This document shows, piece after piece, positions 45,630-64,000 of a stretch of DNA of 64,000 nt. The notes beneath the pieces are model-generated. The model was not told the DNA's origin and ran no database searches. It saw only the letters and a program-made list of their open reading frames with translations. Origin of the DNA: a bacterium (lineage in GTDB: Bacteria > Verrucomicrobiota > Verrucomicrobiia > Limisphaerales > UBA11358); NCBI GenBank assembly GCA_021813325.1, contig JAKALA010000002.1, positions 62,001 to 126,000 of the forward strand, given 5' to 3'. A program made the translations under genes and the position numbers. Numbering within the stretch: the stretch's first letter is position 1; each line of letters opens with the position of its first letter.

Positions 45630-45634
45630 AATAT

Positions 45635-47311: not shown

Positions 47312-47315
47312 TGGC

Positions 47316-48014
47316 ATGTTTACCGAACTGAAAGCCGAGGTGTGCCGGGTCAACAAGGCGTTGGTTGATTCCGGCTTGGTGATTCTCACTTGGGGCAATG
47401 TCAGTGGGGTGGATCGCAAGGCGGGCGTCATGGCCATCAAACCCAGCGGCGTGCCCTACGATAAACTAACGCCCGAGGATATTGTCGTGCTCAACATCGC
47501 TGACGGAGCGGTGCTGGAGGGAAAGTATCGTCCCTCTTCCGACACGGCGACGCATCTGCATCTGTATCGCGCCTTTCCCAATATTGGCGGCGTGGTGCAT
47601 ACCCACTCGCGGCACGCGACGGCTTGGGCGCAGGCAGGGCGTGAATTGCCCTGTTACGGCACCACGCACGCGGATCATTTTGGCGGAACGGTGCCGATCG
47701 CCCGGTTTCTGAGGAAGGCGGAAATTGATGCTGGTTACGAGGTAAATACGGGCGTGGTGATCGAGGAGTGTTTCAAACAGCGCGGTATCAGTCCCGACGA
47801 CGTGCCGGGTGTGTTGTTGCATGGACATGCGCCGTTTACGTGGGGGGCCACGCCGCAAAAGGCATTGGACAATTCCATTGCCTTGGAAGCCTGCGCGCAA
47901 ATGGCGTTCGAGATGTTGCAATTGAATCCGGATGCACAGCCATTACCGGAGGTGGTTCTAAATAAACACTGGAATCGCAAGCACGGACCTGGAGCGTATT
48001 ACGGCCAAAAATGA
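47316..48014 (+). CDS. araD: L-ribulose-5-phosphate 4-epimerase
   Basis: A 232-residue class II aldolase-fold enzyme that converts L-ribulose 5-phosphate to D-xylulose 5-phosphate, which enters the pentose phosphate pathway. Visible landmarks are Thr-Trp-Gly-Asn-Val-Ser (phosphate loop), Lys-Pro-Ser-Gly-Val, the zinc ligands His-Thr-His-Ser-Arg-His near residue 95, and the later His-Gly-His-Ala-Pro-Phe-Thr-Trp-Gly (about 168). It overlaps the next gene by four bases (ATGA), indicating coupled translation. Confidence 0.96.
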   Translation: MFTELKAEVCRVNKALVDSGLVILTWGNVSGVDRKAGVMAIKPSGVPYDKLTPEDIVVLNIADGAVLEGKYRPSSDTATHLHLYRAFPNIGGVVHTHSRHATAWAQAGRELPCYGTTHADHFGGTVPIARFLRKAEIDAGYEVNTGVVIEECFKQRGISPDDVPGVLLHGHAPFTWGATPQKALDNSIALEACAQMAFEMLQLNPDAQPLPEVVLNKHWNRKHGPGAYYGQK

Positions 48015-48979
48015 AAAAACTTTTGCTCCAGACAATGTTGGTGGGTTGGGCGCTGAGTTTTATCAGTGTCGGTTCGCTGGCGGCATCAACGGCTACGAAT
48101 GACACTTTGCTGTTCACATTCTTCCGAGAGCCCAATGGCCAAAGCGGCCTGCAACTGGCGACGAGCACGAATGGATTGACCTGGACGGAACTCAAGCCGC
48201 CTTCGGGAACGGGTTTTATTCTGCCTGAAGTGGGCGGCAAATTGATGCGTGATCCGAGTTTGGCGTTGGGGCCGGATGGTGTGTTTCGCCTCGTATGGAC
48301 GACCAGTTGGGGCCGGCCACCGGTTTTTGGTTATGCGAGTTCGAAAGACTTGATTCATTGGTCAATGCAAGAGGCCATTCCCGTGATGGAGAATGATCCG
48401 GAGGCCAAAAATGTGTGGGCTCCCGAGCTTTTTTATGATGCCAAGAAGGATTTGTGGCTGATTTTCTGGGCGACCACTATTCCTGGAAAATTTTCCGAGA
48501 CGGAAAATTCCGGTGACAACAACCATCGGATCTATTACGTGTCCACCAAGGATTTTGTCCATTTCTCGCCCACAAAGTTATTTTACGACGGCGGGTTCAA
48601 TGTGATCGATGCCACCATTTTGCCAGCCAATGGAAAATACTATCTAATTGTCAAAGATGAGACCAAGAACCCGGTGAAAAAGAATTTGCGCCTGGCTGTG
48701 AGCGAGAATGCCGAGGGACCCTACGGCCCGGCAGGTCCGCCCATCTCGGGCGACTGGGTTGAGGGACCGTCGGGAATTCAGATCGGATCGGAGTTCTACA
48801 TTTACTTTGACCATTACGGCAACCCCAAGTATTACGGAGGGATCAAATCACCCGATATGGAGCACTGGCAGGATATTTCCGCATCCACGTCCTTTCCCAA
48901 GGGCTTTCGGCATGGGACGGTTCTGCGGGTGCCGGAAAATTTGATTCGCAATTTGACGTCCCACACCACAACTGATTAA
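48011..48979 (+). CDS. Secreted GH43-family glycosidase (putative arabinosidase)
   Basis: A 322-residue exported five-bladed propeller enzyme. A signal peptide (1-25) precedes the inverting triad: base Asp81 in Met-Arg-Asp-Pro-Ser-Leu, pKa modulator Asp200 in Val-Ile-Asp-Ala-Thr, and acid Glu251 in Val-Glu-Gly-Pro-Ser. The Trp-Ala-Pro-Glu-Leu motif is also typical. The set of enzymes around it makes an arabinofuranosidase or exo-arabinanase activity most likely; the subfamily cannot be fixed by eye, and some related proteins act on other sugars. Confidence 0.85.
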   Translation: MKKLLLQTMLVGWALSFISVGSLAASTATNDTLLFTFFREPNGQSGLQLATSTNGLTWTELKPPSGTGFILPEVGGKLMRDPSLALGPDGVFRLVWTTSWGRPPVFGYASSKDLIHWSMQEAIPVMENDPEAKNVWAPELFYDAKKDLWLIFWATTIPGKFSETENSGDNNHRIYYVSTKDFVHFSPTKLFYDGGFNVIDATILPANGKYYLIVKDETKNPVKKNLRLAVSENAEGPYGPAGPPISGDWVEGPSGIQIGSEFYIYFDHYGNPKYYGGIKSPDMEHWQDISASTSFPKGFRHGTVLRVPENLIRNLTSHTTTD

Positions 48980-48994
48980 CCCCACAATTCAACC

Positions 48995-50140
48995 ATGAAA
49001 ATAATGCAATTCGTCACATTGGCCGCGGCTGGACTCAGTGCCGCGTGTCTTGTAGGCTGCGCTTCTATGCCCAAATCAACCGGAACCATCACCCAGGCAC
49101 CCTTCGGCACCACCACAAACGGCACGCCGGTGGAAATCTACACCCTCCGTAACTCCAAAGGCGCCGAGGCGCGCATCATGACTTACGGCGGCATCGTGCA
49201 ATCCCTTTCCATGCCGGATAAGAACGGCAAGTTTGCCGACATCGTCCTCGGTTACGATAATCTGGATGGTTATCTGACCAACAGCCCCTATTTTGGAGCG
49301 TTGATCGGCCGTTATGGCAACCGCATCGGCGGCGCTCAATTCACCTTGAATGGACAAACCTATCATCTTGCCAAGAATAATAATGGCAATTCCCTGCACG
49401 GTGGTTTGATCGGCTTCGACAAAGTGGTTTGGACGGCCCGTCCATTAATGACGCCGACGGGTCCGGCGCTCATTCTCACTTACGTCAGCAAGGATGGCGA
49501 AGAAGGTTTTCCGGGCAACCTGATGGTGACGGCCATCTATACGTTGACGGATAACGATGAACTGAAGTTGGAATTCAGCGCGACAACGGACAAGCCGACC
49601 GTTGTGAATCTGACGCATCATTCCTATTTCAATCTGGCGGGGCAGGGGAATGGCGACATTCTCGGACATGTGGTTTATATCGACGCGGACACCACAACCC
49701 CGGTCGATAGCGGGCTGATTCCAACCGGCAAGTTTGCCGACGTTACGGGGACCCCGTTTGATTTCCGCACCCCCACGACCATCGGCGCGCGCATCAACGA
49801 TCCTGATCCGGTGCTGCAATACGGTCCGGGCTATGATCATAATTGGGTGATCAACAAGCCGCTCGGGCAGATGGGGCTGATGGCCCGGGTGACGGAACCC
49901 ACCACCGGCCGCGTCATGGAGGTTTACAGCGATCAACCCGGCCTGCAATTTTATGCCGGCAACTTCCTGGATGGCTCCATGGTCGGCAAAAACGGCGCCG
50001 TTTACAAAATTCACGATGCGTTCTGCATGGAGCCGCAGCATTTCCCCGATTCTCCGAACAAACCTAATTTCCCGTCAGTGGAACTGAAACCGGGTGAGAC
50101 CTATCACAACACGATCATCTACAAGTTCAGCACCGAATAA
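48995..50140 (+). CDS. galM: Lipoprotein aldose 1-epimerase (mutarotase)
   Basis: A 381-residue GalM-type mutarotase interconverting alpha and beta anomers of free sugars. The N-terminus is a lipoprotein signal with lipobox Leu-Val-Gly-Cys (Cys22), so it is exported and membrane-anchored, unlike cytoplasmic GalM. Catalytic features seen are Asn-Leu-Thr-His-His-Ser-Tyr-Phe-Asn-Leu-Ala (general acid His), Tyr-Asp-His-Asn, and Cys-Met-Glu-Pro-Gln-His-Phe-Pro-Asp with the base Glu in the C-terminal part. In this operon it would equilibrate the L-arabinose anomers released by the glycosidases before uptake by the symporter encoded next. Confidence 0.92.
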   Translation: MKIMQFVTLAAAGLSAACLVGCASMPKSTGTITQAPFGTTTNGTPVEIYTLRNSKGAEARIMTYGGIVQSLSMPDKNGKFADIVLGYDNLDGYLTNSPYFGALIGRYGNRIGGAQFTLNGQTYHLAKNNNGNSLHGGLIGFDKVVWTARPLMTPTGPALILTYVSKDGEEGFPGNLMVTAIYTLTDNDELKLEFSATTDKPTVVNLTHHSYFNLAGQGNGDILGHVVYIDADTTTPVDSGLIPTGKFADVTGTPFDFRTPTTIGARINDPDPVLQYGPGYDHNWVINKPLGQMGLMARVTEPTTGRVMEVYSDQPGLQFYAGNFLDGSMVGKNGAVYKIHDAFCMEPQHFPDSPNKPNFPSVELKPGETYHNTIIYKFSTE

Positions 50141-50166
50141 TCGGGCTGCCTCATAAAACCAACAAT

Positions 50167-52005
50167 ATGAACGAAATTACCAACATGGTCATGACCGCCA
50201 CCAATTCGGTCATGGCCTCCACCAACCTCCCGGCTGCGGCCGCCACGGGTTTTAAAGGCACGGTGTTTAACGGCCTGGACGTGGTCGTGATCATCGCCTT
50301 TGCCTTGTGCATGCTGGCCGTCATCGTTTATTCGATGATGAAGAAGAACGAGTCGGGCAAAGACTATTTTCTCTCCGGACGCGATGCCAACTGGCTGCAA
50401 ATCGGTTCTTCGATTTACTCCTCAAACATCGGCTCGGAACACCTGGTCGGTCTTGCCGGTGCCGGGTTTGTTACCGGCATGGCAATGGCCCATTGGGAAA
50501 TGCAGGGCTGGGTGATCCTGATTTTGGGCTGGCTCTTCGTGCCGCTTTACGACCGCATGAAGGTTTTCACCATGCCGGAATTTCTGGAACTCCGTTTCAG
50601 CCGCGGCTCGCGAAACATCCTGAGCCTGCTCACCATCGCCAGCCTGGTGCTGACGAAAATCGCGGCGACCATCTATGCCGGCGACGTGGTTATCCGCACC
50701 TTGTTGAACGTCAATACGGTTAACATCTTCGGCTATCACATGGACGTGTTTTGGGCCATTGCCTTGGGGCTGGCCTTCACCACGGGGGTTTACACGATTG
50801 TCGGCGGTTTGCGCGTCATCATGTATACGTCGGTGCTTCAGGCGCCGGTGCTGATTATCGGGTCCATGTGCATTCTCTATTCGGCGCTGCGGGTCCTGGG
50901 ACACGGCAGTCTGATGGAGGGCTGGCATACGACCCTTACTACCGTTGGCGACAATGTGCATTTGATCCGCTCCGCCAAAGATCCTGAATGGCCCTGGCCG
51001 GCGATTCTGCCGGGGGCCGCCATTATCGGCTTCTGGTATTGGTGCACCGACCAATACATCGTGCAACGCGTGCTCGCGGGAAAGAATCAAAAGGAATCGC
51101 GGCGCGGCACCATTCTCGCCGGTTTCTTCAAGCTGACGCCGGTGTTCATCTTCCTGGTGCCGGGCATGGTGGCGTTTGCGCTGACCAAAGATCAATCGGC
51201 TCATTTTGTCACCAGCGGCGATCAGGCCTATACCTCGCTGGTCGCGCAAATTCTGCCGCACGGGTTGCGGGGCATTGTGGCGTGCGGGATGATCGTGGCT
51301 CTGATGGCCTCGTTGGGATCCAAATTCAACGCCTGTGCGACGTTGTTCACCATGGACTTTTACCGGGAGTGGTATCCAAACGCCTCCGGTCGGATGGAAG
51401 TCCACATGGGACGTATCGCCACGGCGGTCATCGTGTTCGTGGGCATTTGCTGGGTTTTGGTGATCAAGAGCCTGCACTCGAATCTTTATGAATATCTCCA
51501 GAGTGTGCAGGGCTATCTCTCGCCCGCCATTGTGGTGCTGTTCGTGTTTGGCGTTTTTTGGAAGCGCGCGAATGCCACGGGCGCTTTATGGTCTTTCTCC
51601 GTTGGCGTGCTGGCTGGCTTTGCCCGGCTGGCGGCGGACATCATCTTGCGCAACGACACCAAGGTGGTCACTGATCTGAAGGACCAGCTCTATCACCAAG
51701 CAATCACTTTGGAGCAATACAATTCGGCCATTGCTCCCATTAAGGCCAAGGCTGGAATTTTGTGGTATCTCTGGGATATTCACTGGCTATATTACTGCCA
51801 GATTCTGCTGGTCGTGACCGCCGTGCTGATGGTGGTGATCAGCCTCATGACCAAGGCGCCGGATCCGAAGACGGTGAAGTTCACCTATTACGGAGCCACA
51901 CCCGAGGAAAAGGCGGTTACCCGCGCAAGCTGGAACAAGTGGGATGTCATTTTGAGCTTGTTGGTGGTCGCTTTGTGCATCCTGTTCTACATTAAGTTCT
52001 GGTAA
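50167..52005 (+). CDS. Sodium:solute symporter (SSS/SGLT family), probable L-arabinose transporter
   Basis: A 612-residue inner-membrane transporter with about 14 predicted helices. The SGLT signature is clear: Gly-Ser-Ser-Ile-Tyr-Ser-Ser-Asn-Ile-Gly-Ser-Glu-His-Leu-Val-Gly-Leu-Ala-Gly (about 79-97), Met-Pro-Glu-Phe-Leu-Glu-Leu-Arg-Phe, and Trp-Tyr-Trp-Cys-Thr-Asp-Gln-Tyr-Ile-Val-Gln-Arg (about 290). It resembles sodium/glucose and sodium/galactose carriers. As last gene of the operon it probably imports L-arabinose coupled to sodium; the sugar is inferred from the neighbours only. A strong terminator follows at 52023. Confidence 0.92.
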   Translation: MNEITNMVMTATNSVMASTNLPAAAATGFKGTVFNGLDVVVIIAFALCMLAVIVYSMMKKNESGKDYFLSGRDANWLQIGSSIYSSNIGSEHLVGLAGAGFVTGMAMAHWEMQGWVILILGWLFVPLYDRMKVFTMPEFLELRFSRGSRNILSLLTIASLVLTKIAATIYAGDVVIRTLLNVNTVNIFGYHMDVFWAIALGLAFTTGVYTIVGGLRVIMYTSVLQAPVLIIGSMCILYSALRVLGHGSLMEGWHTTLTTVGDNVHLIRSAKDPEWPWPAILPGAAIIGFWYWCTDQYIVQRVLAGKNQKESRRGTILAGFFKLTPVFIFLVPGMVAFALTKDQSAHFVTSGDQAYTSLVAQILPHGLRGIVACGMIVALMASLGSKFNACATLFTMDFYREWYPNASGRMEVHMGRIATAVIVFVGICWVLVIKSLHSNLYEYLQSVQGYLSPAIVVLFVFGVFWKRANATGALWSFSVGVLAGFARLAADIILRNDTKVVTDLKDQLYHQAITLEQYNSAIAPIKAKAGILWYLWDIHWLYYCQILLVVTAVLMVVISLMTKAPDPKTVKFTYYGATPEEKAVTRASWNKWDVILSLLVVALCILFYIKFW

Positions 52006-52022: not shown

Positions 52023-52057
52023 AAAGCTGCGGCGCCCGGTGCGTCGCGGCTTTTTTT
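52023..52057 (+). terminator. Rho-independent terminator of the arabinose operon
   Basis: AAAGCTGCGGCG (52023-52034) pairs with CGTCGCGGCTTT (52042-52053) through 12 pairs including two G-U pairs, followed by further T residues. It lies 17 bases after the symporter stop. Confidence 0.9.
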
Positions 52058-52271: not shown

Positions 52272-55200
52272 TCAGGGTGCCACGCAGGTTTGGGCGGCTT
52301 CCGCAAATGCCGTTTCCAGAATTTTGGCCGCGCTTGGCAAAGCCCGCGAAAGTTTGTCCATCTGGCCATTAAGCCGCAGGACCGTTTGTTTGGCGGAATA
52401 CGCCAGCATGCGCCGATACCAATTGATGAACGCCCGGCTGGCGGCTTCTTCTTCGGCCTGGCTTTGAGGCGCGTGCGTGGTTGGAGATTCAACCGCCTGA
52501 CACAGGATCAAGGCGGCCAAGGCGGTGGGTTGGCTGGTTGAATTCCAGACTTTTTCCCAAAAATCCAAGGCTTCACCGGGGTTTTCGCTCAACATCAACG
52601 CTTCCGCCCGCTGCGCCTGCAGGGCGGTAGTCTCGGGCAAATGCGTCATGGCTTCGGTGGTCCAGTCGCGGGCGAATTCTAAAAACTCCGGCTGGCTCAA
52701 GGCGATTTGCCCGCCCAGCAGCCAGGCCGCCGGTTGTTGCGGATTGCCGGCGACGATTTCATTAAGCCGGTGCAGCGCTTCGACCGGTTGATTTTGCGCG
52801 GCTAGAAACCGCGCGTAATCCAGGCGCAAGGCCTCGCCGTTGCCGGACTCTTTCAGGCCCGCTTGAAACGCCTTTTCGGCGCCGGTTGCGTCGCCTGTTT
52901 GAAGCAGGCACATGGCCAGGCAGTGATGCGGCGCCGCCGTGTTGATTTCTTTGTTGATGGGCGCAAAGCTGCGCTGGGCGCGTTTGCCCAGGCACTGGCG
53001 CATCTGATCGGCGGCTTCGCTGAACTGCTTCAATTCGAGATGAGCCAGGCCAAGTGAGAAATGGAGCGATGCCGGCAGGCCGCCGTCCATTTTTGCCAGC
53101 GGCGAAGTCAAAATGCGCACCACTTCAAAGGGCTGTTGGGCCGCCGTCAATTGAGTGCAATACTGGGTGAGCAGGGTTTCGCGCAGTTCCGGCACAATTT
53201 CCGCCGCCGGCTTCGATGCCAGGCAATCAAAGGCTTCGCGATAGCGTGCCAGGGCCGCGTCCTTTTGACCGGAACGCGAAAGTTCTAGTCCAAGGTTCAT
53301 CAGCAAATGCGGCTCGCCGGGCAGCTCTTCAATCGCGCTTTCCAAAAGCTTGAGATTGCGTTCGACCTTGTTGCGGTCGCGGGTGATTTCGGCCGTGTAG
53401 CCATAATGCGTCAGCGTGGCCTCCCCGAGGCGGTTCTCCAAGCCCCATTCAGACCGGCGCACTTCGATGCTGCTGAAGACCTGTTCGTGAATCCGGCCGA
53501 GGTAAAACAAGCCGGGCGCGTTGCGGAAAAGCCGCGGCACATAGGAACAACCCTCCGCTTCGCGTCCGATGTCAATGATCGGCAGGCGCCAGGCGAGGAC
53601 TGCGGAGGCGGCCAGCGCTGGCGGAAGTTTTTCGCGGCCTTCAGCCGAGAGTTCCTCATCCGCGTCAAGCACCAGCACCCAGTCGCCGGTGGCATGTTCC
53701 AGGGCCGTGTTGCGGGCGGCGCTGAAATCATCGCACCAGGCGAACCGGTGAATTTCCGCGTTGAACTCCCTGGCAATCTCCACTGTCCGGTCGGTCGAGC
53801 CGGTGTCCACCACGACAATTTGCGCGGCGAGATCGCGAATGGATTTCAAACATTGCGCCAGAAATTTTTCCTCGTTTTTTACGATGAGACAAACCGACAA
53901 TTTGGGCGTGTTTTTGCCACCAGCTTGAATGGCATCTGGTAGTTTTAGCCAATCCGGGTGGGAACCACCTTTGAACCGCTGGTTCAGGAATTTTTTGGCG
54001 GGCTTCCAGCCGGGCGCCAGTGAACGGGCGTGCTCGGCGCACGCTTTGGCGGCGGTGGCATTACCCACCGTCTGGGCAATTTCGGCAAGCAACAAATACG
54101 CTTCCGGATGGAAAGGACGGACGTTGATGGCTTGCCGGGCCGCACTCCAAGCCGCCGAAGCACGTTTTTGGGCGAGGTGCTCGCGGGCGGCGCCAAGGTG
54201 CCCCAGTAAGGCGCAAGGTGGCAGCGTGATTTTTACTTTTCCCGCCGGCGCGGACGGTTTGGTGGCCGTCGCCTTGACCGGTTCCAGTTGGGTCAGTGCG
54301 CGGCAGCGTTCAACCACAGTGTTCGCGGTTTTCTGCCAGGAGCAGTTCAATTTCGCGTAATCGGCAGCCAATTGGCCGCGGCGATGTGATTCTTCGGGCT
54401 GGCTGAACGCTTCGCGCAGGGCTTGCTGCAACGCCGGCAGGCTGGGTTCCAAAAGCCAGCCGGGGCTGGTCAATTTCATGCCGCTGATTTCATGGCCAAA
54501 CACCTGTTTGACGGCAGGGATGCGCCAGCCGAAATCATCGCGCACAAAGTCATCCGTTGAACCGCCCGCCGTGACGATCACGGGCAAGCCGCAGGCCATC
54601 GCTTCCAGCGCGGGCAGGCCAAACCCTTCGCCGCGATACGGCAACACCAGACAATCGCACGCGGTGTAAAGACCGGGCAGGGCGTCGGGAGGAAGTTCCT
54701 CGTTGAGATACAAAATTTCCGGGGCGTTTGGTTGCGCTTGCGCGGCGCGGATTTTTTCCTCGAACGTTTGCCCGGCATAAACACTGGCGCCGCCAAAATC
54801 TTTGATGACCAAGCAAACATCATCCGCGGCCGTGAACTGTTCCAAATAGGCCTTGAGCAACAAGTCTGGCCCTTTGCGGTAAATGGTGCCGCCGACAAAC
54901 AGGAATTTGAATTTCTTGTTCGTGGCCAGTTTTATCGGCGCGGCCTGCGGATGAAATGAATCGGGATTGATGCCATTGGCCACCACCGCCACTTTTTGCG
55001 CGGGCACACCGGAATCCACGTAAACGCGGCGCACGTATTCGGATGGCACCCAAAATTCGTCCACTTCAGCGGATTGCTGAACCCATTGGACGGGCAGGGA
55101 ACCGAACTCCCACGGCTGAATCACCACCAGTTTGCCGCTGCGCGGACGGCGCCAATCCGGCGGCCAGGCGTGACGCACGGTGATTTCCGGCGTCGCCGGT

Positions 55201-58200
55201 TTATCTCCTGCGAGTTCTTTTGCCAGCGATTCCCAGCCAGCGGTCGCAGGCGCGCCATTGGGAACGCGTTGGAGCCGCAACCCGGCTGAATTTTTCAGAA
55301 GGGCGGAAGTCAGCTCGCGGTTGACATGCGACAGGCTGCCGCTGTCGAGGAAGGAACCTTCCCAAGAGAGCACCACTGCCTTGGCGGCAGATTCAGAACG
55401 CGATGCGCTGCCCGGCGACTTTAAAACGCTTTCGCTTGCGGGAATGAACTGCGGCTTGGCTGGCACGATGAATTGTTGCCGCTGGTCAAAGGATTTGCCC
55501 CAACGCGAAAAGAATATTTTGAGGTTCTCGTTGACGTGATTGAACCGTCCGGCGCTTTGGCCTTCCAGGTGATAAACCACGGCGCCGGGTTCGTAAACCA
55601 CCTTGCGCCCGGCGGCGCGGGCGCGCAAACAAAGATCAATATCCTCAACCCCGTTCCGGTAAATCTCGTCAAAGCCCGCAAGTTTCAAGAACAGTTCACG
55701 CTCCATCAAGAGGCATGCGCCGGTCACCATGTCCAGTTCTCGACGCGAATTCACCTCGGATGCGAACGGTGCCGAGTGGCGATAAGGATGATCGGGGAGA
55801 CCGTTGATCCAGCCGATGCCGGCATGTTGAATCGTGTTGTCAGCGTAAAGCAGTTTGGCACCGACGATGCCGGCATTGGTTTTGTCCGCAGCATTCAACA
55901 GAGCTTCGATCCAGCCGGCGGTCACTTTGGTGTCGTTGTTGAGAAACACCAGCCATTCCGCAGTGGCCGCCGCCGCCCCTTGATTGCAGGCGCGGGCAAA
56001 GCCTTCGTTCTGCGGATTGCGGATGACGCGGATTTGGCCGGCCTTTTCTAGTGAAGCCAAATGCTCTTTCGTTCCATCCGTCGAAGCATTGTCCACCACG
56101 ATGATTTCGCGGGTCACATCCGATGGAATTCGGGCCAGCGAATTGAGACAGCCTTGGGTCAGCGGCAGATTGTTAAAGACCGGGATGATGATCGAAACCA
56201 AGCTCGGTTTCGCAATCACCTCGCCAGGCAAAACCGCGACCGGGGTTGGGGGCGATTCGATTTTGTCGGACGAATTAGGGGCCGGAATCTGGACCGGTTG
56301 CCGTGCGACATCAGAAATGATCGGGGTTCTGGCTTTGGGCTTGGGCTTCGGCTGGCGCTCCAACTTGGCCTCGGCAAGGAGGGTCTCGGCTTCTTTGATC
56401 GCAATGGGATCACAGCCGCTCCGCGCGATCAGCACCGCCTGTTCGAGCATGGTGCTTGCGAGCTGACCCTGGCCGTTTGCGACCAACACCCTGCCGATTT
56501 CCAGCAAGGTATGCTGCACAATGGCGGGATGCTGCGTGGTTTCGGCGGATTGTAGCACTTCGAGGAAGATGGCTTCGGCGGGTTTGTGCTGGCCGGCGAC
56601 AAGGAGATCTTTTGCGATGCTGACCATGCGGTGATGCATCCGGAGCAGGTTTTCGTGGCCGGGATTTGGCTCGTTTTTTTCCGCCGGAAACAAAATCGCA
56701 CCTTGCAGGCAATGTATCAGGCCCTGAAGCGGTGCGGGCACGGCGGACAAATAAGGCCGGAGACTTCGCTGATGGTTGGCATAGACCGGCGTGCTGCGAA
56801 TCATGCTCTTGTCGGCAACCCGATACCAGAACAGCGCCTCGGGCAAGGTCTCCATGCGGCAGCCGTGGAGCGCCGCGCGGGCGTAAAACTCCCAGTCTTC
56901 GTGCGTAATGCCATAATCCTCGCTAAAGCCACCGAGACGTTCAAAGGTGGTGCGGCGTATACAGCCGTTAGCATCACCAAAACAATTGCGAAAAGCGCCG
57001 GTGCCGGCTGCCGGCCCAAGGAAAATCCAGCGCGCCACGGGTTTGGCGGCAGCGGGCGGCGGCTCCGTGCCGATGAACAAATCCATTGCCGAAGTGACAA
57101 TTTCTGCGCCAGTTTTTTGGGCAGCCTGGACGAATGCGGAGAGCTGATGCGGCTTCGCAATATTGTCGTCGTCCATGAAAACGATGAATTCGCCCCTCGC
57201 GTGGCGGGCAGCGGTGTTGCGGGCGGCTCCAAGGTAACGGTTCTCCTGGCGGATAATCTGCCAGTTACGCTGCTTGAATTCAGCCTCCAGGCTGGCGAGG
57301 AATTTTAGGGCTTCCGGCTTGGTGCTGCCATCGTCCACTAGCACAACTTCAAAATTCGGATAATCCTGTGCCCGCAAGGAAGCAAGCGCCTGAGTGAGCA
57401 GTTCCGGGCGGTTGAAATGGATCAGACACACGCTGACTAGCGGTAGAGGGTCGTTCGGCACCAGCGGCTCGGGAGCGGATTGCGTCGCCCACGTCTGATG
57501 CCATTGCAGCCATGCTTGAATCGGGGCAGACGTATTAACCGGGCGCGCCGGAGCGACGGGATGCTTTAGTGTGGCCAGCAGCGCGGTCACGAGTGCGGCG
57601 GCAGTGCCGGAATTGAAAACCTGCCGGTGTTCGGCAGGCGCTATCAGCTCGGCCAGGCCGCCGCCGGAAACAGCGAGAAAAGGCACACCCAGCGACAGGC
57701 AGCGGCGCGCGATCAACGGCGAGTTTTCCGTGGGCGAGGGCAAGATTGAGAGCCGGCCTTCGCCCTTCAGATACTCGTTGAGTTTGGCGGGTGGAGCCTG
57801 AATCAGTTGCCATTTGACCGTCCACTGGCGGGTGCGGTCATACAGATATTCTAAGGCCCGAGGGCCTCTGGCAGTGGTCAAATCATCGGCAAATGTTATG
57901 GTGATTTTACGCAGCGCGTCCGGCCCAAGCCGTTCCAGTGCATCGCAGAACGTGGCTAGTCCGGGACACTTGCCAAGCGGGCCAAGATAGACAAGTTCAC
58001 CTACGCGGGTTAGCAGAGCGGGTGTTTCATCAGGTGAGAAAAGTGGATTTGGCCGCCACTGCCGCTCTGCCGGCAGATCCCAGTTCTGCCGTTCCAGCCA
58101 TCCCCGCAGGTATTGGGTGGTGGTGACGAGCGCATCAGCCCGGCGAAAGCATTCCTGCTCCAGAAAATCGAGTTCCAGTTCGTAAGGGTTGTTGACAAAG

Positions 58201-59726
58201 GCATGGCTGGCTTGTCGACGCCAGACGCGGGGACCGTGGGCGTTCAGGCAGAAACGGGTGCGCACAAATGCTGTGCCTTGTTTTTTAGCCAGCAGGCAGT
58301 AAAAACCGATGCCGTGCGTTTCAGGGATATGCACCACATCAAACGACTGGCCGAGCAGCCAGAGATAGGTTTCATAGGCGCGGGTGCAAGCTTCAGTGGA
58401 CTCCACCGGCACCTGTATGCTGTTCGGCAAGGGCACATATTCTATCCCACATTCGGAAAAATATTTTCGCCAATGGCTGACGGAAAGGCCACTGCCGTAT
58501 TGCGCTTCCGTGTGAAGCAAAGTGACATGGTGGCCGACTTGCGCGAATGTTTTAGCAAGCTCGACCTGGGCGGAACCGGCATCACCGTGGATGCCTTCGC
58601 CAGCGACATCGGGCGTAACCACGCACAGGGATAGTGGCCGGCTGGCAGATGCGACCATCGTCTTGGTTGGAAAGTAACGGGCGGCGGAGGGAAGCCAGCG
58701 GGTCGTTGGTGTGCTTAATTGCGCCAGCAAGGGCCGCAGTGCGTTGCTCAGGCGGCAACGCGTCGTCAAGGTTTCGTAGCCGTGCTCGATAATGTGTTGG
58801 GCCTCGGCCTGTCCGGCTGCCGAGCCGAGGAAATATTCAATGCGGTCTGGAATCTCGTCGAGCGGTGCTTCCACATAGTCAAGGTTCGCCCCAAATGGCG
58901 GGGCAATGCTGCACGGTTCGCTGATGACCAGCGTGCGCTGGGCGATGCCCAGCAGGACAATTCGGTGCCATTCAAAATACTGGTCCACACCGTGGTGTAA
59001 GTTAAGGAGGATTTTGCTTCGCTGCGAGAGCCCCACCGAGGTCAGCGTGTTCATGTTGGTGGTCTGGCCGGGAATCATCGGCCGCGTGGCCGCAGGCTTG
59101 TGGAAAAAACAGTGATGGTTTTTCAGCCGGGCGGCGTGACGGGCAAAGTATTTCTCGCGGCGCGGCGAGCCATGCCCCAAGAAAAGCAGATCAATCGGGC
59201 GGCGGGCAAACCTCTGGTCGAATCCGGAAAAGTCGCGCACCGCAGCCGGCAGCGCGCGGATTTCTTCAATGAGGGGCATTTGCTCCACCGGCTGCAGCAA
59301 AGGGGAGTTGGAAACGTGGCCGAGCGGAAGATAATGGCACGGATAACCGCGTTTGCAGATTCGAAGCGTTGAGTCAAAATCAATATCCCAAATGGCGAAG
59401 GCGCGTTCAAAGTGCCGCACCGATAGGGAAAGCCAGTAGGAGGAGGGCTGTTCGGTGTTAAACAGGATAAGGTTTGATGGCCACTTCTGGGAAACCAGAT
59501 TTTTACCCACGCCCAGTTCGAAAAACTCATGAGGCGCGATTACGAGATGCCAATTGGCTTTTGGCGCAAAGCCGTCCCGCTCGTTCCGAAATTCAACGGT
59601 TAGCCCGAGTTCCCTAAGCCCGGCCCCGATCAAATCGCGAATTTCGTGAAAAAAATAATTTCCCTGCGAGCTGGTATATAACACAAATCGGTCGGGCCGG
59701 GGCACGGAGGACAGGTTTTTGCACAT
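52272..59726 (-). CDS. Giant multi-domain glycosyltransferase (about six GT modules plus TPR)
   Basis: A single 2,484-residue open frame, no signal peptide, so cytoplasmic. Modules in order (approximate residues): CgeB-like/DUF3880 GT-B (1-345); GT4 (365-730); GT2 with a Asp-Asp-Asp metal motif (760-975); a low-complexity Pro/Lys linker (about 1130-1170); second GT2 (1177-1410, metal motif Asn-Asn-Asp); second GT4 with Gly-Glu-Gly-Phe-Gly-Leu-Pro-Ala-Leu-Glu-Ala-Met-Ala (1447-1790); TPR-like (1830-1910); third GT2 with Asp-Ala-Asp-Glu-Glu (1940-2090); and TPR repeats to the end. It probably adds a multi-sugar glycan stepwise, with TPRs holding the protein acceptor. It follows the TPR/acetyltransferase/methyltransferase gene by 23 bases, downstream of flgL-fliW-csrA. 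The ATG at 59726 is the first in this frame after the neighbour's stop. Acceptor and sugars are unknown. Confidence 0.88.
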   Translation of the reverse strand: MCKNLSSVPRPDRFVLYTSSQGNYFFHEIRDLIGAGLRELGLTVEFRNERDGFAPKANWHLVIAPHEFFELGVGKNLVSQKWPSNLILFNTEQPSSYWLSLSVRHFERAFAIWDIDFDSTLRICKRGYPCHYLPLGHVSNSPLLQPVEQMPLIEEIRALPAAVRDFSGFDQRFARRPIDLLFLGHGSPRREKYFARHAARLKNHHCFFHKPAATRPMIPGQTTNMNTLTSVGLSQRSKILLNLHHGVDQYFEWHRIVLLGIAQRTLVISEPCSIAPPFGANLDYVEAPLDEIPDRIEYFLGSAAGQAEAQHIIEHGYETLTTRCRLSNALRPLLAQLSTPTTRWLPSAARYFPTKTMVASASRPLSLCVVTPDVAGEGIHGDAGSAQVELAKTFAQVGHHVTLLHTEAQYGSGLSVSHWRKYFSECGIEYVPLPNSIQVPVESTEACTRAYETYLWLLGQSFDVVHIPETHGIGFYCLLAKKQGTAFVRTRFCLNAHGPRVWRRQASHAFVNNPYELELDFLEQECFRRADALVTTTQYLRGWLERQNWDLPAERQWRPNPLFSPDETPALLTRVGELVYLGPLGKCPGLATFCDALERLGPDALRKITITFADDLTTARGPRALEYLYDRTRQWTVKWQLIQAPPAKLNEYLKGEGRLSILPSPTENSPLIARRCLSLGVPFLAVSGGGLAELIAPAEHRQVFNSGTAAALVTALLATLKHPVAPARPVNTSAPIQAWLQWHQTWATQSAPEPLVPNDPLPLVSVCLIHFNRPELLTQALASLRAQDYPNFEVVLVDDGSTKPEALKFLASLEAEFKQRNWQIIRQENRYLGAARNTAARHARGEFIVFMDDDNIAKPHQLSAFVQAAQKTGAEIVTSAMDLFIGTEPPPAAAKPVARWIFLGPAAGTGAFRNCFGDANGCIRRTTFERLGGFSEDYGITHEDWEFYARAALHGCRMETLPEALFWYRVADKSMIRSTPVYANHQRSLRPYLSAVPAPLQGLIHCLQGAILFPAEKNEPNPGHENLLRMHHRMVSIAKDLLVAGQHKPAEAIFLEVLQSAETTQHPAIVQHTLLEIGRVLVANGQGQLASTMLEQAVLIARSGCDPIAIKEAETLLAEAKLERQPKPKPKARTPIISDVARQPVQIPAPNSSDKIESPPTPVAVLPGEVIAKPSLVSIIIPVFNNLPLTQGCLNSLARIPSDVTREIIVVDNASTDGTKEHLASLEKAGQIRVIRNPQNEGFARACNQGAAAATAEWLVFLNNDTKVTAGWIEALLNAADKTNAGIVGAKLLYADNTIQHAGIGWINGLPDHPYRHSAPFASEVNSRRELDMVTGACLLMERELFLKLAGFDEIYRNGVEDIDLCLRARAAGRKVVYEPGAVVYHLEGQSAGRFNHVNENLKIFFSRWGKSFDQRQQFIVPAKPQFIPASESVLKSPGSASRSESAAKAVVLSWEGSFLDSGSLSHVNRELTSALLKNSAGLRLQRVPNGAPATAGWESLAKELAGDKPATPEITVRHAWPPDWRRPRSGKLVVIQPWEFGSLPVQWVQQSAEVDEFWVPSEYVRRVYVDSGVPAQKVAVVANGINPDSFHPQAAPIKLATNKKFKFLFVGGTIYRKGPDLLLKAYLEQFTAADDVCLVIKDFGGASVYAGQTFEEKIRAAQAQPNAPEILYLNEELPPDALPGLYTACDCLVLPYRGEGFGLPALEAMACGLPVIVTAGGSTDDFVRDDFGWRIPAVKQVFGHEISGMKLTSPGWLLEPSLPALQQALREAFSQPEESHRRGQLAADYAKLNCSWQKTANTVVERCRALTQLEPVKATATKPSAPAGKVKITLPPCALLGHLGAAREHLAQKRASAAWSAARQAINVRPFHPEAYLLLAEIAQTVGNATAAKACAEHARSLAPGWKPAKKFLNQRFKGGSHPDWLKLPDAIQAGGKNTPKLSVCLIVKNEEKFLAQCLKSIRDLAAQIVVVDTGSTDRTVEIAREFNAEIHRFAWCDDFSAARNTALEHATGDWVLVLDADEELSAEGREKLPPALAASAVLAWRLPIIDIGREAEGCSYVPRLFRNAPGLFYLGRIHEQVFSSIEVRRSEWGLENRLGEATLTHYGYTAEITRDRNKVERNLKLLESAIEELPGEPHLLMNLGLELSRSGQKDAALARYREAFDCLASKPAAEIVPELRETLLTQYCTQLTAAQQPFEVVRILTSPLAKMDGGLPASLHFSLGLAHLELKQFSEAADQMRQCLGKRAQRSFAPINKEINTAAPHHCLAMCLLQTGDATGAEKAFQAGLKESGNGEALRLDYARFLAAQNQPVEALHRLNEIVAGNPQQPAAWLLGGQIALSQPEFLEFARDWTTEAMTHLPETTALQAQRAEALMLSENPGEALDFWEKVWNSTSQPTALAALILCQAVESPTTHAPQSQAEEEAASRAFINWYRRMLAYSAKQTVLRLNGQMDKLSRALPSAAKILETAFAEAAQTCVAP

Positions 59727-59749: not shown

Positions 59750-62464
59750 TCAAACAAACAGGTCCGGCGGCGCTTGCTTTTGCAGGCAGACGACATCCTG
59801 ATGGTTGTCCCAGCCTTTTTCGTGGTAGGTGATCAGTTTTAAATCCGGCAGGGCAACCAACTGTGATAGCACATAAGCCGGGTTGCAAAGACTGATCCCG
59901 TAGCCGGACGCGCCGGGGTAGTCGGCATAGCCAAAACCTGACTGATAATATTCCTGGAGCAGTGCCGCCACATCAGGATCCTGCAGTCCATATCGGTATC
60001 GGCCGGTGGCCAGCGAACGCTCGACCCACCGGCCATGCAGGGTGAATACAATCAGCCCGTTGGGATTGACCAATGAATTGAATAGGCGGATAAAATCAGC
60101 ACACGCTTCGGCATGTAGATGCGTCAGGAGCGACCCGGACCAGATGAGGTCGAATTTGCCTTGCAAAGGGATCTGGTTCACTTCCACTTTGGAATAAACC
60201 GGCTGCGCGTAAAACGTCTGCGCGCAAAAATCCACCGCGCCGGAGTTTAGATCGCAGGCCGTGAAGTGTGCCTCGGGAAAAGCCGCCTTGAAATGGCGCA
60301 TCACCCGGCCGTGACCGCAGGGCAAATCCAGGATGCTCCGCACACTGGTTTTCGGCTTCCCGGCGGCTCGCAGGGCGCTTTCGATGCAATGCAGGGCGGA
60401 TTTCCCGACATTAATGTAATGGGCCATGTCGCCAGTGAACATTTCGTCACCCGTGCCGATTGTTTGAATCACGCCGGTGGCATCAGTGGTGCCACGCTCA
60501 GAATTCGTGGTTTCGGCTTTGGTGCCGACGGAGGGAGCGACGGGGCGGGCGCGACCGAAATCAGCAGCGACGGTGGCAACGTCGGCTGGCTTTATTTTGC
60601 GGAGCGCCACATCATGATAGGTCCATTGGTGCAGCCCCAGGTAAATGATCTCAAAACCGTGCTCCAGGCAAAATTCATTCACCGCGCGATAAACGCCATA
60701 TGTGGTCTTTTCCAGCGGCGAGTAAATTGTGTAGTCATTGCAGACAATCCAGCCGTCGGCTTTAATTTTTTTGGCCGCCTGTTCCAAATCGCGCCTGGCC
60801 CCTTCGTAGGAATGATTCCCGTCGATATATATGAAATCGAAAGACTCATCGGACGCCTTTGCCAGTAAGGATGACGAGTCGCCCTCGTGCAGTTCGACTG
60901 TGCCCTGTTGAATCGCTTCCTGAAAATAAGCGAGGTCAAACGGGGTGAAGTCTAGGTCATAGATGTGCAACTTGGCCGGTTCCGTGACCGAGAGAATCTG
61001 CTTGGCAAAATTTCCCGTCTGCGTTCCGATTTCGGCGCATACTCCACCTTTGGGCAGCAGCGCGAGAATGTCTTTCCGGCGAGGCACGACGCGGCTGTTT
61101 CTTAAATGGAGATCGGTCAGCAACGGCGGTTTTACCTCGGCAAAAAATTTACAACCGGCAGTCAGAAAATTCCAGACATGCTGACGGGCTTGGCGCTTGG
61201 CCTGGGCATTGAGGGCGAACCCCGCTCCATTCAAAAATGCGGACTGGACGGAGCCGTTGGCGTTTATTGTCATTGGAGGCTGAATGCAGGCTCCCGGCGC
61301 TGGATGATCGTTGTGGGCACAGGTGTTTCGGGATACTGCCGGAATTTCCACGGCTCGAACCGGCTTCGCTGACGGGGGGCGGAGTTGGTCGTCCGCCCAG
61401 GCGCGTTCCAGCGCGTCAAAATCCGAACTACACAGCAAAGCCATATGGCGGTTGATCATTTCCGGCGGCCAGTCCCACCACTGGGTTTTTTCGAGGATCG
61501 CAATTTCCGAGTCGGAAAATCGTTTTCGGATGGGGCGGGCGGGAGTTCCGGCGACAAGCGTATAGGGTTCGACGGATTTGTTGACGAGCGAACAAGCGCC
61601 AATCACAGCACCATTGCCAATCGAGATGCCCTTGAAAAGTTTGACATTGTATCCGATCCACACGTCGTTGCCAATGGTGATGTCGCCTCGACTCTTGTTG
61701 CTGCCATAGCAGGCCGCCTGCGGATATGGAATCCCGCTCGTCCCCGGCCAGCGCCGGCGGTTTGCGTCATCAAGAAACGGATACATAGTCATCCATTCAC
61801 TGTGATGATCATATCCTATGATCGTGAGATCCGTGGCAATGGAACAAAACTTGCCAATGCGGAGGTGAGTCAGCGCGCCGCTCGGGTTGCTGATCTTGGA
61901 GTCGTGAATGTAACTGTAGTTGCCGAGCGTGAGAGTCAGTCCGGGGTCAAGGCGGACCGCACTCGCCACTGGCTCGGTTGGTGTGGAACATGTTTTGGTG
62001 TTTTGCGGAGATGCAGGCAATCGACTCGGGTTATTCGCAAACGTCCGCTGTGGGCTGGCGGGTGATGGTGCGGCCGGAATTTTGACATGTGGATTGAGGG
62101 TGCGCAAAACGGTGGCGGCCTCTGTATTGGCGGGATCCAGACCAAGGGCTCGGTAGGCATTGAACTCGGCCTCCATGGCATTGCCGACATCCACATGCAA
62201 CCGGGCCAAGCCGGAAAACGCGGAGGCGCAGGATGGATTAAACCTTAAAGCCTCAGAAAAATCGCCCCGGGCGGCAGCGAAGTCTTTTTGTAATAATTTT
62301 ATTCGTCCACGTTGGCAGAGAATTGCAACATCGTTTGGAGCGAGGTTTATCACCCGGTTGAGTGTCACCAAGGCGCTGGAATAATCTGCTTGAGTGATAA
62401 AGTGTTGGCATGATTCCAACGCCTGCTGAACCACGTCTAGGCTGGGTGGAGCGGTGTTTGGCAT
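59750..62464 (-). CDS. Fusion protein: TPR, hexapeptide acetyltransferase, two SAM methyltransferases
   Basis: A 904-residue cytoplasmic protein. Modules: TPR repeats (about 1-125); a left-handed beta-helix O-acetyltransferase of the CatB/Vat type (about 170-350) with Gly-Asn-Asp-Val-Trp-Ile-Gly, Gly-Ala-Val-Ile-Gly-Ala and Ala-Gly-Thr-Pro-Ala-Arg-Pro; a class I methyltransferase of the Methyltransf_24 type (about 426-625; Cys-Ala-Glu-Ile-Gly-Thr-Gln-Thr-Gly, Tyr-Ile-Asp-Gly-Asn-His-Ser-Tyr); and a second class I methyltransferase (about 675-904; Leu-Asp-Leu-Pro-Cys-Gly-His-Gly-Arg). These are sugar-modification activities, so the protein probably decorates (O-acetyl, O-methyl) sugars added by the downstream giant glycosyltransferase. 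It starts with ATG at 62464, 154 bases after csrA. Confidence 0.87.
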   Translation of the reverse strand: MPNTAPPSLDVVQQALESCQHFITQADYSSALVTLNRVINLAPNDVAILCQRGRIKLLQKDFAAARGDFSEALRFNPSCASAFSGLARLHVDVGNAMEAEFNAYRALGLDPANTEAATVLRTLNPHVKIPAAPSPASPQRTFANNPSRLPASPQNTKTCSTPTEPVASAVRLDPGLTLTLGNYSYIHDSKISNPSGALTHLRIGKFCSIATDLTIIGYDHHSEWMTMYPFLDDANRRRWPGTSGIPYPQAACYGSNKSRGDITIGNDVWIGYNVKLFKGISIGNGAVIGACSLVNKSVEPYTLVAGTPARPIRKRFSDSEIAILEKTQWWDWPPEMINRHMALLCSSDFDALERAWADDQLRPPSAKPVRAVEIPAVSRNTCAHNDHPAPGACIQPPMTINANGSVQSAFLNGAGFALNAQAKRQARQHVWNFLTAGCKFFAEVKPPLLTDLHLRNSRVVPRRKDILALLPKGGVCAEIGTQTGNFAKQILSVTEPAKLHIYDLDFTPFDLAYFQEAIQQGTVELHEGDSSSLLAKASDESFDFIYIDGNHSYEGARRDLEQAAKKIKADGWIVCNDYTIYSPLEKTTYGVYRAVNEFCLEHGFEIIYLGLHQWTYHDVALRKIKPADVATVAADFGRARPVAPSVGTKAETTNSERGTTDATGVIQTIGTGDEMFTGDMAHYINVGKSALHCIESALRAAGKPKTSVRSILDLPCGHGRVMRHFKAAFPEAHFTACDLNSGAVDFCAQTFYAQPVYSKVEVNQIPLQGKFDLIWSGSLLTHLHAEACADFIRLFNSLVNPNGLIVFTLHGRWVERSLATGRYRYGLQDPDVAALLQEYYQSGFGYADYPGASGYGISLCNPAYVLSQLVALPDLKLITYHEKGWDNHQDVVCLQKQAPPDLFV

Positions 62465-62618: not shown

Positions 62619-62936
62619 TCATTTGCCATCCGCACTGTATGCTTTTTGCAACCCTGGCTTTTTGCCATCGCGCAATACCGGTTGCCCGGCAGGGCCAGCC
62701 TGCTTGAGGGCGAGGGCGCTGCCATTCAACTTGGGCAGCGCGGTGGCCCTCTGCTGGGTCAATGCCTGCTGGTTGTTGCGCTGGATTTCTTCGTAAACTT
62801 CCTTCCGATGCACCGGCACATCCAGCGGCGCTTCGATCCCCACTTTGACGATGTCGCCTTCCACCCGCACCACTTTCACGTGAATGCGACCGTCGATCAC
62901 AATGCTTTCACCGGATTTTCTCGAGAGAATGAGCAT
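62619..62936 (-). CDS. csrA: Carbon storage regulator / translational repressor CsrA with C-terminal extension
   Basis: An mRNA-binding dimer that blocks ribosome access at GGA motifs, classically on flagellin mRNA. The core (1-57) is canonical: Met-Leu-Ile-Leu-Ser-Arg-Lys-Ser-Gly-Glu-Ser-Ile, with the RNA-contacting Val-His-Arg-Lys-Glu-Val-Tyr segment. At 105 residues it is about 40 longer than usual; the tail is Gln/Ala/Leu/Lys-rich with no recognised domain. It lies 11 bases after fliW, the usual partner-antagonist pairing. Confidence 0.96.
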   Translation of the reverse strand: MLILSRKSGESIVIDGRIHVKVVRVEGDIVKVGIEAPLDVPVHRKEVYEEIQRNNQQALTQQRATALPKLNGSALALKQAGPAGQPVLRDGKKPGLQKAYSADGK

Positions 62937-62947
62937 AGGAGGACTGG

Positions 62948-63388
62948 TTATTGGGCGTTTTCTGCGACGGGTAGGGGATGTTGCACCGAAAAGTCACTGG
63001 CATTGGCCAGAATGACCTGTTTACCGATGTGGGTGCGGCGGTTGATGACAATCGGGCTTTTTAAATTGACGGTGGCTTGGTTCGGGCTGTGAATGGTCAC
63101 GATGTTCAGCAGCCGGGCGTCGCGCGGATCATCCAATCCCAGAAAATCCACGTCGGATTGCGGAATGTCGGGCTGATACTCGGGCATGACCAGGAAAGGA
63201 TCGATGACAATGAACGCGAGGGAGGCGTTGGCCTCCACCTGTAACCAGGCGAATGGCTCCTCTTCGGGGTTGGCGAGCAGGACGTATTCTTTGATCTGCT
63301 CAAAACCCAGAATGCCCATGGGCAACCGCACCTTGTTATTCAGGGGCGCGGCGGGTTTTTCCATTTCGATCATTTCAGCGCATTTCAT
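62948..63388 (-). CDS. fliW: Flagellar assembly factor FliW
   Basis: A 146-residue FliW, which binds flagellin and sequesters CsrA, so that flagellin synthesis is tuned to secretion. Landmarks are Pro-Met-Gly-Ile-Leu-Gly-Phe-Glu, Pro-Phe-Ala-Trp-Leu-Gln, the Ile-Asp-Pro-Phe loop and the C-terminal Lys-Ser-Pro-Ile-Val-Ile-Asn. It precedes csrA by 11 bases and is separated from flgL by about 200 bases that hold inverted repeats. Confidence 0.94.
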   Translation of the reverse strand: MKCAEMIEMEKPAAPLNNKVRLPMGILGFEQIKEYVLLANPEEEPFAWLQVEANASLAFIVIDPFLVMPEYQPDIPQSDVDFLGLDDPRDARLLNIVTIHSPNQATVNLKSPIVINRRTHIGKQVILANASDFSVQHPLPVAENAQ

Positions 63389-63590: not shown

Positions 63591-64000
63591 TTACGGGATG
63601 TAGTTGAGGATGGACATCTGCATCAGCTTGGTGCCGCTTTGCAGAGCCGCTTGATACGCGGTTTGGGCATGGCTCAGTTGGACCATGGTTTGCACCAGGT
63701 CCGCGCTGGAATTTTTGGAGATGTTTTCATCCAGCGAACTGGCCCGGGTGGTGGCAAAGGTGGCGGCAATATTTAGACGGGTTTGCACCGCGCCGTTGTT
63801 GCTGATTTGATAGAGCTGGTGGTTCTCATCATTCTGAATATTGGCCGAATCGGTCGTGGAAACAGCCGTGGAATTGCCGCTGTTCAAATTGTTTTGCAGC
63901 GACAGGAGATGATTGAACAAATCGGCCCCGGAGGAACTGTCGGTGATCAACCCGCGGGGACCGGAGCCGGAGGTGTTTTCGCCGGGCACATCGACGGACA
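63591..64000 (-). CDS. flgL: Flagellar hook-associated protein FlgL (HAP3), C-terminal part, truncated by window edge
   Basis: The open frame continues past the window end; 136 residues are visible. The C-terminal helix matches the flagellin-family D0/D1 pattern: Ala-Asp-Leu-Val-Gln-Thr-Met-Val-Gln-Leu, Ala-Gln-Thr-Ala-Tyr-Gln-Ala-Ala-Leu-Gln-Ser-Gly, and the final Ser-Ile-Leu-Asn-Tyr, as in FlgL, the junction between hook and filament. Flagellin (FliC) also shares this pattern but usually ends in Leu-Leu-Arg or similar, so FlgL is favoured. It would be the first gene of the flgL-fliW-csrA group. Confidence 0.85.
   Translation of the reverse strand, partial: SVDVPGENTSGSGPRGLITDSSSGADLFNHLLSLQNNLNSGNSTAVSTTDSANIQNDENHQLYQISNNGAVQTRLNIAATFATTRASSLDENISKNSSADLVQTMVQLSHAQTAYQAALQSGTKLMQMSILNYIP

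Follow-up and report, generated by a model that had tools for sequence, protein, structure and literature searches.

A 2,484-residue multi-glycosyltransferase protein with a GmaR-like core, encoded at a flagellar locus in Verrucomicrobiota

A giant gene at the end of a flagellar gene cluster

The window analysed here, a stretch of 64,000 nucleotides, contains a gene for a protein of 2,484 amino acids at the end of a flagellar gene cluster. A preliminary description of this DNA had noted one uninterrupted reading frame of that length without giving its strand. Translation of the window confirmed the frame on the minus strand, with an ATG at 59726 and no internal stops; a plus-strand reading of 52272-59726 was excluded, as it contains stops throughout. 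The gene begins 23 nt downstream of a 904-aa gene, and an AGGA-type ribosome site lies 5' of its start. Homologues form open frames of approximately 1,600-3,700 aa in many independent genomes, one of which is a closed 4.73-Mb genome, and the giant frame is therefore neither a product of chance nor an assembly error. The features of the locus are as follows.

52272..59726, minus strand: multi-glycosyltransferase gene, stop included (2,484 aa)
58647..59696, minus strand: M1, residues 11-360; uncertain family, possible GT-B, with a weak PF13524/CgeB-type signal in homologues only
57567..58586, minus strand: GT4N, residues 381-720; GT4-like, with Arg in place of the second EX7E Glu
56772..57458, minus strand: GT2a, residues 757-985; GT2, with DDG / DDD / HED intact and conserved in five genomes
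56232..56771, minus strand: linker, residues 986-1165; weak TPR-like signal (E 0.02, below cut-off)
55491..56213, minus strand: GT2b, residues 1172-1412; rhamnosyltransferase-type GT2, with DNAS / NND / VED intact
54297..55409, minus strand: GT4c, residues 1440-1810; GT4, with a Pfam match at 1601-1735 and intact EX7E
53937..54194, minus strand: TPR segment before GT2c, residues 1845-1930 (Pfam, core alignment, AlphaFold model)
53232..53921, minus strand: GT2c, residues 1936-2165; GmaR/SunS-family GT2, proposed flagellin-priming transferase
52293..53231, minus strand: C-terminal TPR superhelix, residues 2166-2478 (Pfam, AlphaFold model); proposed flagellin-binding
59750..62464, minus strand: 904-aa partner gene; TPR, hexapeptide acyltransferase and two SAM methyltransferases
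about 61415-61954, minus strand: acyltransferase of the partner (CatB/Vat-like hexapeptide)
about 60665-61099 and 59975-60394, minus strand: methyltransferases of the partner
62619..62936, minus strand: csrA
62948..63388, minus strand: fliW
63591..64000, minus strand: flgL, 3' part; the gene runs past the window end

In the direction of transcription, the cluster reads flhA, flhF, fliA, motA, motB, flgF, flgG, flgA, flgH, flgI, flgJ, flgN, flgK, flgL, fliW, csrA, the 904-aa gene and the giant gene. The flagellar gene names were read from the translations, with the exception of FliW, CsrA and a Flagellin_N match. The acyl and methyl transfer activities predicted for the partner from its sequence would fit glycan decoration. 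The other flank of the giant gene is occupied by a convergent symporter-like gene, with a likely terminator hairpin at 52023-52053, and scans for promoters and terminators yielded nothing useful besides this hairpin. By eye, from the translations, the convergent run at 43659-52005 (plus strand) reads as an arabinose/arabinan utilisation operon, with arabinofuranosidase-like, FGGY-type kinase, ribulose-5-phosphate epimerase-like, GH43-like, mutarotase-like and sodium/solute symporter genes. Contig C34 of the same genome carries a FliD-like gene and two short flagellins with a Ser/Thr-rich central stretch. A 404-aa GT2 protein with a hydrophobic C-terminus (L014, 11939-13153) adjoins both flagellin genes, on a separate contig from the giant gene.

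Searches with Pfam and NCBIfam gave the module order, from N- to C-terminus, as M1, GT4N, GT2a, GT2b and GT4c, followed by TPR-GT2c-TPR. Five of the approximately six glycosyltransferase modules previously proposed were matched by Pfam, while the sixth, M1, is probable and has no Pfam family. The three GT2 modules were recovered at about residues 757-985, 1172-1412 and 1936-2165, and the TPR segments at about 1875-1905 and 2220-2356. All of the metal motifs named earlier are present, namely DDD in GT2a, NND in GT2b and DAD in GT2c, and catalytic motifs are intact in four of the six modules. The claim of two GT4 modules stood in part: GT4c is clear (PF00534, E 8.5e-27), with its EX7E reading EGFGLPALE at 1700, whereas GT4N is GT4-like only. 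The N-terminal half of GT4N (388-555) matches PF13579 (E 4e-11) and keeps the first Glu of EX7E; at the second position, each of the five genomes with this module has Arg, Gln or His instead. Judged by this motif, GT4N may be inactive or atypical. The loss is a consistent variant across the five genomes and not random decay.

The identity of M1 is less certain. No Pfam family was matched across the first 360 residues of the window protein, and the label "CgeB-like" that had been given to its N-terminus was not confirmed. PF13524 was weakly detected in homologues of M1 only (E 0.003-0.015; 15.7 and 17.9 bits in two homologues, against a cut-off of 25 bits), and an AlphaFold model of M1 from the single sequence had a pLDDT of 35, too low for use. 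The Maf flagellin glycosyltransferase domain was absent among all 22 Pfam matches of the giant protein, which rules out a Maf-type enzyme. The protein has no clear membrane segment, its peak hydropathy window being the first strand of GT2b, and a cytoplasmic enzyme is therefore expected.

A fixed C-terminal core and an exchangeable N-terminal cassette

When the window protein was used as a query against its relatives, residues about 1440-2480 gave matches of 50-66% in numerous genomes across the genus and the order, and the remainder was mostly unmatched in those relatives. The core aligned end to end with 40-65% identity. By these alignments, the fixed part of the giant protein is its C-terminal TPR-GT2-TPR core. 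Among proteins of solved structure, GT2c is most similar to Listeria GmaR (22ao), matched at E 4e-30 in a single-sequence search and at 1e-46 in a profile search; SunS ranked second (E 2e-20 and 1e-30, respectively). Among 40 GT2c sequences from several phyla, 20 residues were invariant; the DAD motif (D184-A185-D186), the arginine of RLFRN (R228) and the HE pair (H243-E244) belong to these. The AlphaFold model of the core was confident throughout (pLDDT 94.9, pTM 0.89) and shows a GT-A domain preceded by a short TPR and followed by a long TPR superhelix. Its best structural matches were SunS/ThuS (Z 22-25), and its TPR part resembles the OGT superhelix. The GmaR GT domain was not among the Foldseek/VIA structural matches, entry 22ao probably being newer than the database copy (April 2026). 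On the combined strength of alignment and modelled fold, the membership of the proposed priming module in the GmaR/SunS family can be regarded as settled. A tree of GT2c placed the Verrucomicrobiota cores together, with no other phylum among them, at a support of only 0.14, and carries no evidential weight. Microcoleus and further cyanobacteria, which to our knowledge are not known for flagella, likewise encode GT2 proteins resembling GmaR; family membership alone therefore does not prove a flagellin target.

Upstream of GT4c and the core, relatives carry other modules. These include a HAD hydrolase in five genomes (G025, G014, G057, G046, G048), methyltransferases, among them the FkbM type, in five others (G033, G027, G026, G035, G020), GT9 modules in G026 and G035, GT11 in G020, and further GT2 and GT4 modules. 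The M1-GT4N-GT2a-linker-GT2b set recurs in four other genomes, with module identities of 38-80%; G017 and G166 are congeners, and G119 and G098 belong to other families. In three of these four, the set is accompanied by the partner's second methyltransferase. M1 and GT4N are missing in nine other congeners examined, the cores of which are 47-79% identical to that of the window; one of these, G033, has GT2b in common with it at 58%. Given this distribution of the cassette against core identity, core and cassette have different histories. GT2a is 69-80% identical, with its motif residues all kept, in all four genomes that share the cassette, even across families. Together with the full conservation of the GT2a and GT2b motifs in five genomes, this indicates that the cassette is under constraint. 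GT4c adjoins the core in most architectures, and this position beside the core suggests that it acts second.

Several further arrangements were observed. In L036, L038, L043, L045 and L047, the alternative N-terminus consists of the HAD hydrolase and about 700 residues that have no Pfam match, followed by GT4c. In L049 (G020:C167), the machine is split into two adjoining giant genes of 2,323 and 1,665 aa, the first protein carrying FkbM methyltransferase, GT4, GT11 and GT2 modules. L052 (G042:C49, 3948-5945) holds a natural minimal form, a bare core of 665 aa that has no extension modules and lies beside flhF and flhA. In L042 (15551-16624) and L038 (7648-8715, minus strand), a further GT2 protein of the GmaR type, only about 355 aa long, is encoded convergently, directly after the giant gene.

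Association with flagellar genes within the order and in other phyla

A recurrent layout was found in 20 mapped loci, comprising flgK, flgL, fliW, csrA, none to two sugar-modification genes and a giant protein ending in TPR-GT2c-TPR. The flagellar neighbourhood was retained in most relatives with intact contigs; by their named records, the relatives belong to Verrucomicrobiota, with subdivision 3 among them. Co-occurrence of the core with FliW was counted in 217 genomes of the order that were 85% complete or more; the core was counted above about 200 bits, and weaker matches were left out as fragments or other proteins of the GmaR type. Both were present in 83 genomes, the core only in three, FliW only in 18 and neither in 113, these counts being uncorrected for kinship. 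The two were located on one contig in 43 genomes, at distances of 2.9-32 kb. Within the genus of the window, both were found in 11 genomes, the core only in one, FliW only in two and neither in at least 18. That core and FliW switch together inside the genus argues against shared ancestry alone, as a partial control. Some of the exceptions are MAG gaps: the contig of G006, which has the core without FliW, ends inside the giant gene, and in G166 a contig end cuts the giant gene before the core.

The flagellar linkage that had been guessed from one window thus recurs in many genomes, with near-obligate co-occurrence of FliW, and across the mapped and counted genomes the neighbourhood beside flgL, fliW and csrA proved to be conserved. 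In the survey of module order that the preliminary description had suggested, the C-terminal core and the locus were kept, whereas the N-terminal modules differ in most congeners examined. Taken together, the flagellar link of the giant gene is strongly supported.

Related proteins are present in other phyla. In Gemmatimonadota (L075, L086, L095), a split version on two proteins follows flgK, flgL, fliW and csrA, the first protein (1,334-2,171 aa) carrying GT2b- and GT4c-like modules and the second (1,043-1,406 aa) consisting of GmaR-like GT2 units in tandem, two or three in number. Tandem GmaR-like GT2 proteins were seen to adjoin large GT2+GT4 proteins in four loci of Gemmatimonadota/Latescibacterota (L075, L086, L090, L095), three of them flagellar. 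A related pair of multi-GT proteins is present in Calditrichota. In Paenibacillus, the GmaR-like genes are separate and stand singly or in rows of up to three; in L094, where the retrieved stretch includes flgL-fliW-csrA, they lie downstream of it. The same locus as in Gemmatimonadota and Paenibacillus is found in Bacteroidota. On these comparisons, the verrucomicrobial protein is the fused form of what other phyla keep as neighbours, and the fusion here of genes that are neighbouring elsewhere supports a common pathway.

A proposed flagellin glycosylation machine

We propose, with a probability of roughly 0.75, that the gene product is a cytoplasmic flagellin O-glycosylation machine in which GmaR-like priming is combined with fused extension modules. 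The C-terminal TPR superhelix would most likely hold flagellin awaiting export, or another filament or junction protein, while GT2c would place the first sugar, probably GlcNAc, onto surface Ser/Thr. The fused GT4c, GT2b and GT2a would then lengthen this sugar to an oligosaccharide, with GT4N and M1 as less certain contributors, and the 904-aa partner would add acyl and methyl groups before export. The core would set the target and the N-terminal cassette, exchanged between species, would set the glycan. We infer the acceptor, the sugars, the order of action and the activity of all modules. That the acceptor is a flagellar protein, as had been guessed earlier, gains support from the similarity of the fixed module to GmaR, its nearest relative of solved structure. 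The suggestion in the preliminary description that a whole glycan may be built on one protein fared less uniformly: the intact motifs in four of six modules agree with it, whereas M1 matches no family, GT4N departs from the usual motif and, in some relatives, the modules are divided between two proteins. The 18 genomes in which FliW occurs and the core was not detected speak against a flagellin machine.

An assembly line in which the core adds the first sugar and GT4c, GT2b, GT2a, GT4N and M1 follow in turn is a tentative and rather doubtful elaboration. If it were colinear in this way, the module order would predict the glycan from the protein-linked end outwards and a cassette swap would rewrite the flagellar glycan, a likeness to polyketide or non-ribosomal peptide synthases, where module order does the same. 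It is also conceivable, if unlikely, that the core adds only one or a few sugars to flagellin and that several N-terminal modules are degenerate or structural, with no long glycan being made. The missing second Glu of GT4N in five of five genomes, the lack of a confident family for M1 and the bare core beside flhF/flhA all favour such a reduced role; against it, GT2a, GT2b and GT4c retain their motif residues, and the identity of GT2a across families denotes strong constraint.

A different target, i.e., another surface or exported protein or a polysaccharide, with the flagellar genes merely co-transcribed, appears improbable. GT2 and GT4 are generic families and TPR-GT2 proteins resembling GmaR exist in cyanobacteria, but the core lacks FliW in just three of 86 genomes, one of them contig-cut (G006), and the co-switching inside the genus, the recurrence of the locus in Gemmatimonadota, Paenibacillus and Bacteroidota, and the absence of a clear membrane segment all argue against such a target. 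We give very little weight to the protein being mainly a regulator, in which the TPR region would act as an anti-repressor or flagellin-level sensor and glycosylation would be secondary. GmaR is indeed bifunctional (PMC9638930), and csrA and fliW, tuners of flagellin synthesis, lie close upstream; the intact GT motifs and the many additional enzymatic modules in the gene, however, fit poorly with such a role.

The proposed flagellin machine shares parts with known systems. GmaR of Listeria monocytogenes is a flagellin O-GlcNAc transferase and MogR antirepressor with a TPR region after the GT (PMC9638930). It resembles the core in its GT2, the nearest by sequence, in this TPR region and in its flagellar role, but has 637 aa, one GT and an antirepressor domain, whereas here the core is the C-terminus of 2,484 aa, TPRs flank the GT, and the chain holds as many as five additional GT modules. 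SunS and ThuS (7msp, 7msn, 7msk) share the GT-A and helical-repeat arrangement of the core, but are small single-GT peptide S-glycosyltransferases acting on bacteriocin peptides. The proposed mechanism follows the scheme known from type B flagellin of C. difficile, where GlcNAc is primed by one GT and two rhamnoses are then added by a protein combining GT and methyltransferase (PMC5207246); GlcNAc priming, extension and methylation by GT2-family proteins and a flagellar locus are alike, although there the proteins (GT1, GT2, GT3) are separate, with one or two domains each. Caulobacter FlmG (PMC7591256), compared by description, is a modular GT for cytoplasmic flagellin glycosylation with a single GT. 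Multi-GT polypeptides are rare but not unprecedented, since A111/114R of PBCV-1 (860 aa) carries three GT activities on one chain (PMC7826918). As the giant protein would, judging by its motifs, it combines several sugar transfers to a protein glycan on one polypeptide with no membrane pathway; it differs in being viral, with three domains acting on an N-glycan, and in having no protein-priming domain and no exchangeable cassette.

In the open-access literature, our search found neither a published account of this kind of fusion nor one of Verrucomicrobiota glycosylating their flagellin. The proposal amounts to GmaR-family flagellin glycosylation in a fused, modular and exchangeable form. Bacterial glycans are normally built by separate enzymes, and their structure is not readable from genes. 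If the proposal is true, these proteins would form a natural set of modular enzymes that build glycans on a single acceptor, from which sequence-to-glycan rules would be learnable and testable, as well as a source of cytoplasmic, lipid-free parts for glycoengineering. In uncultured Verrucomicrobiota, it would also account for a flagellar surface that could vary although the targeting enzyme is kept.
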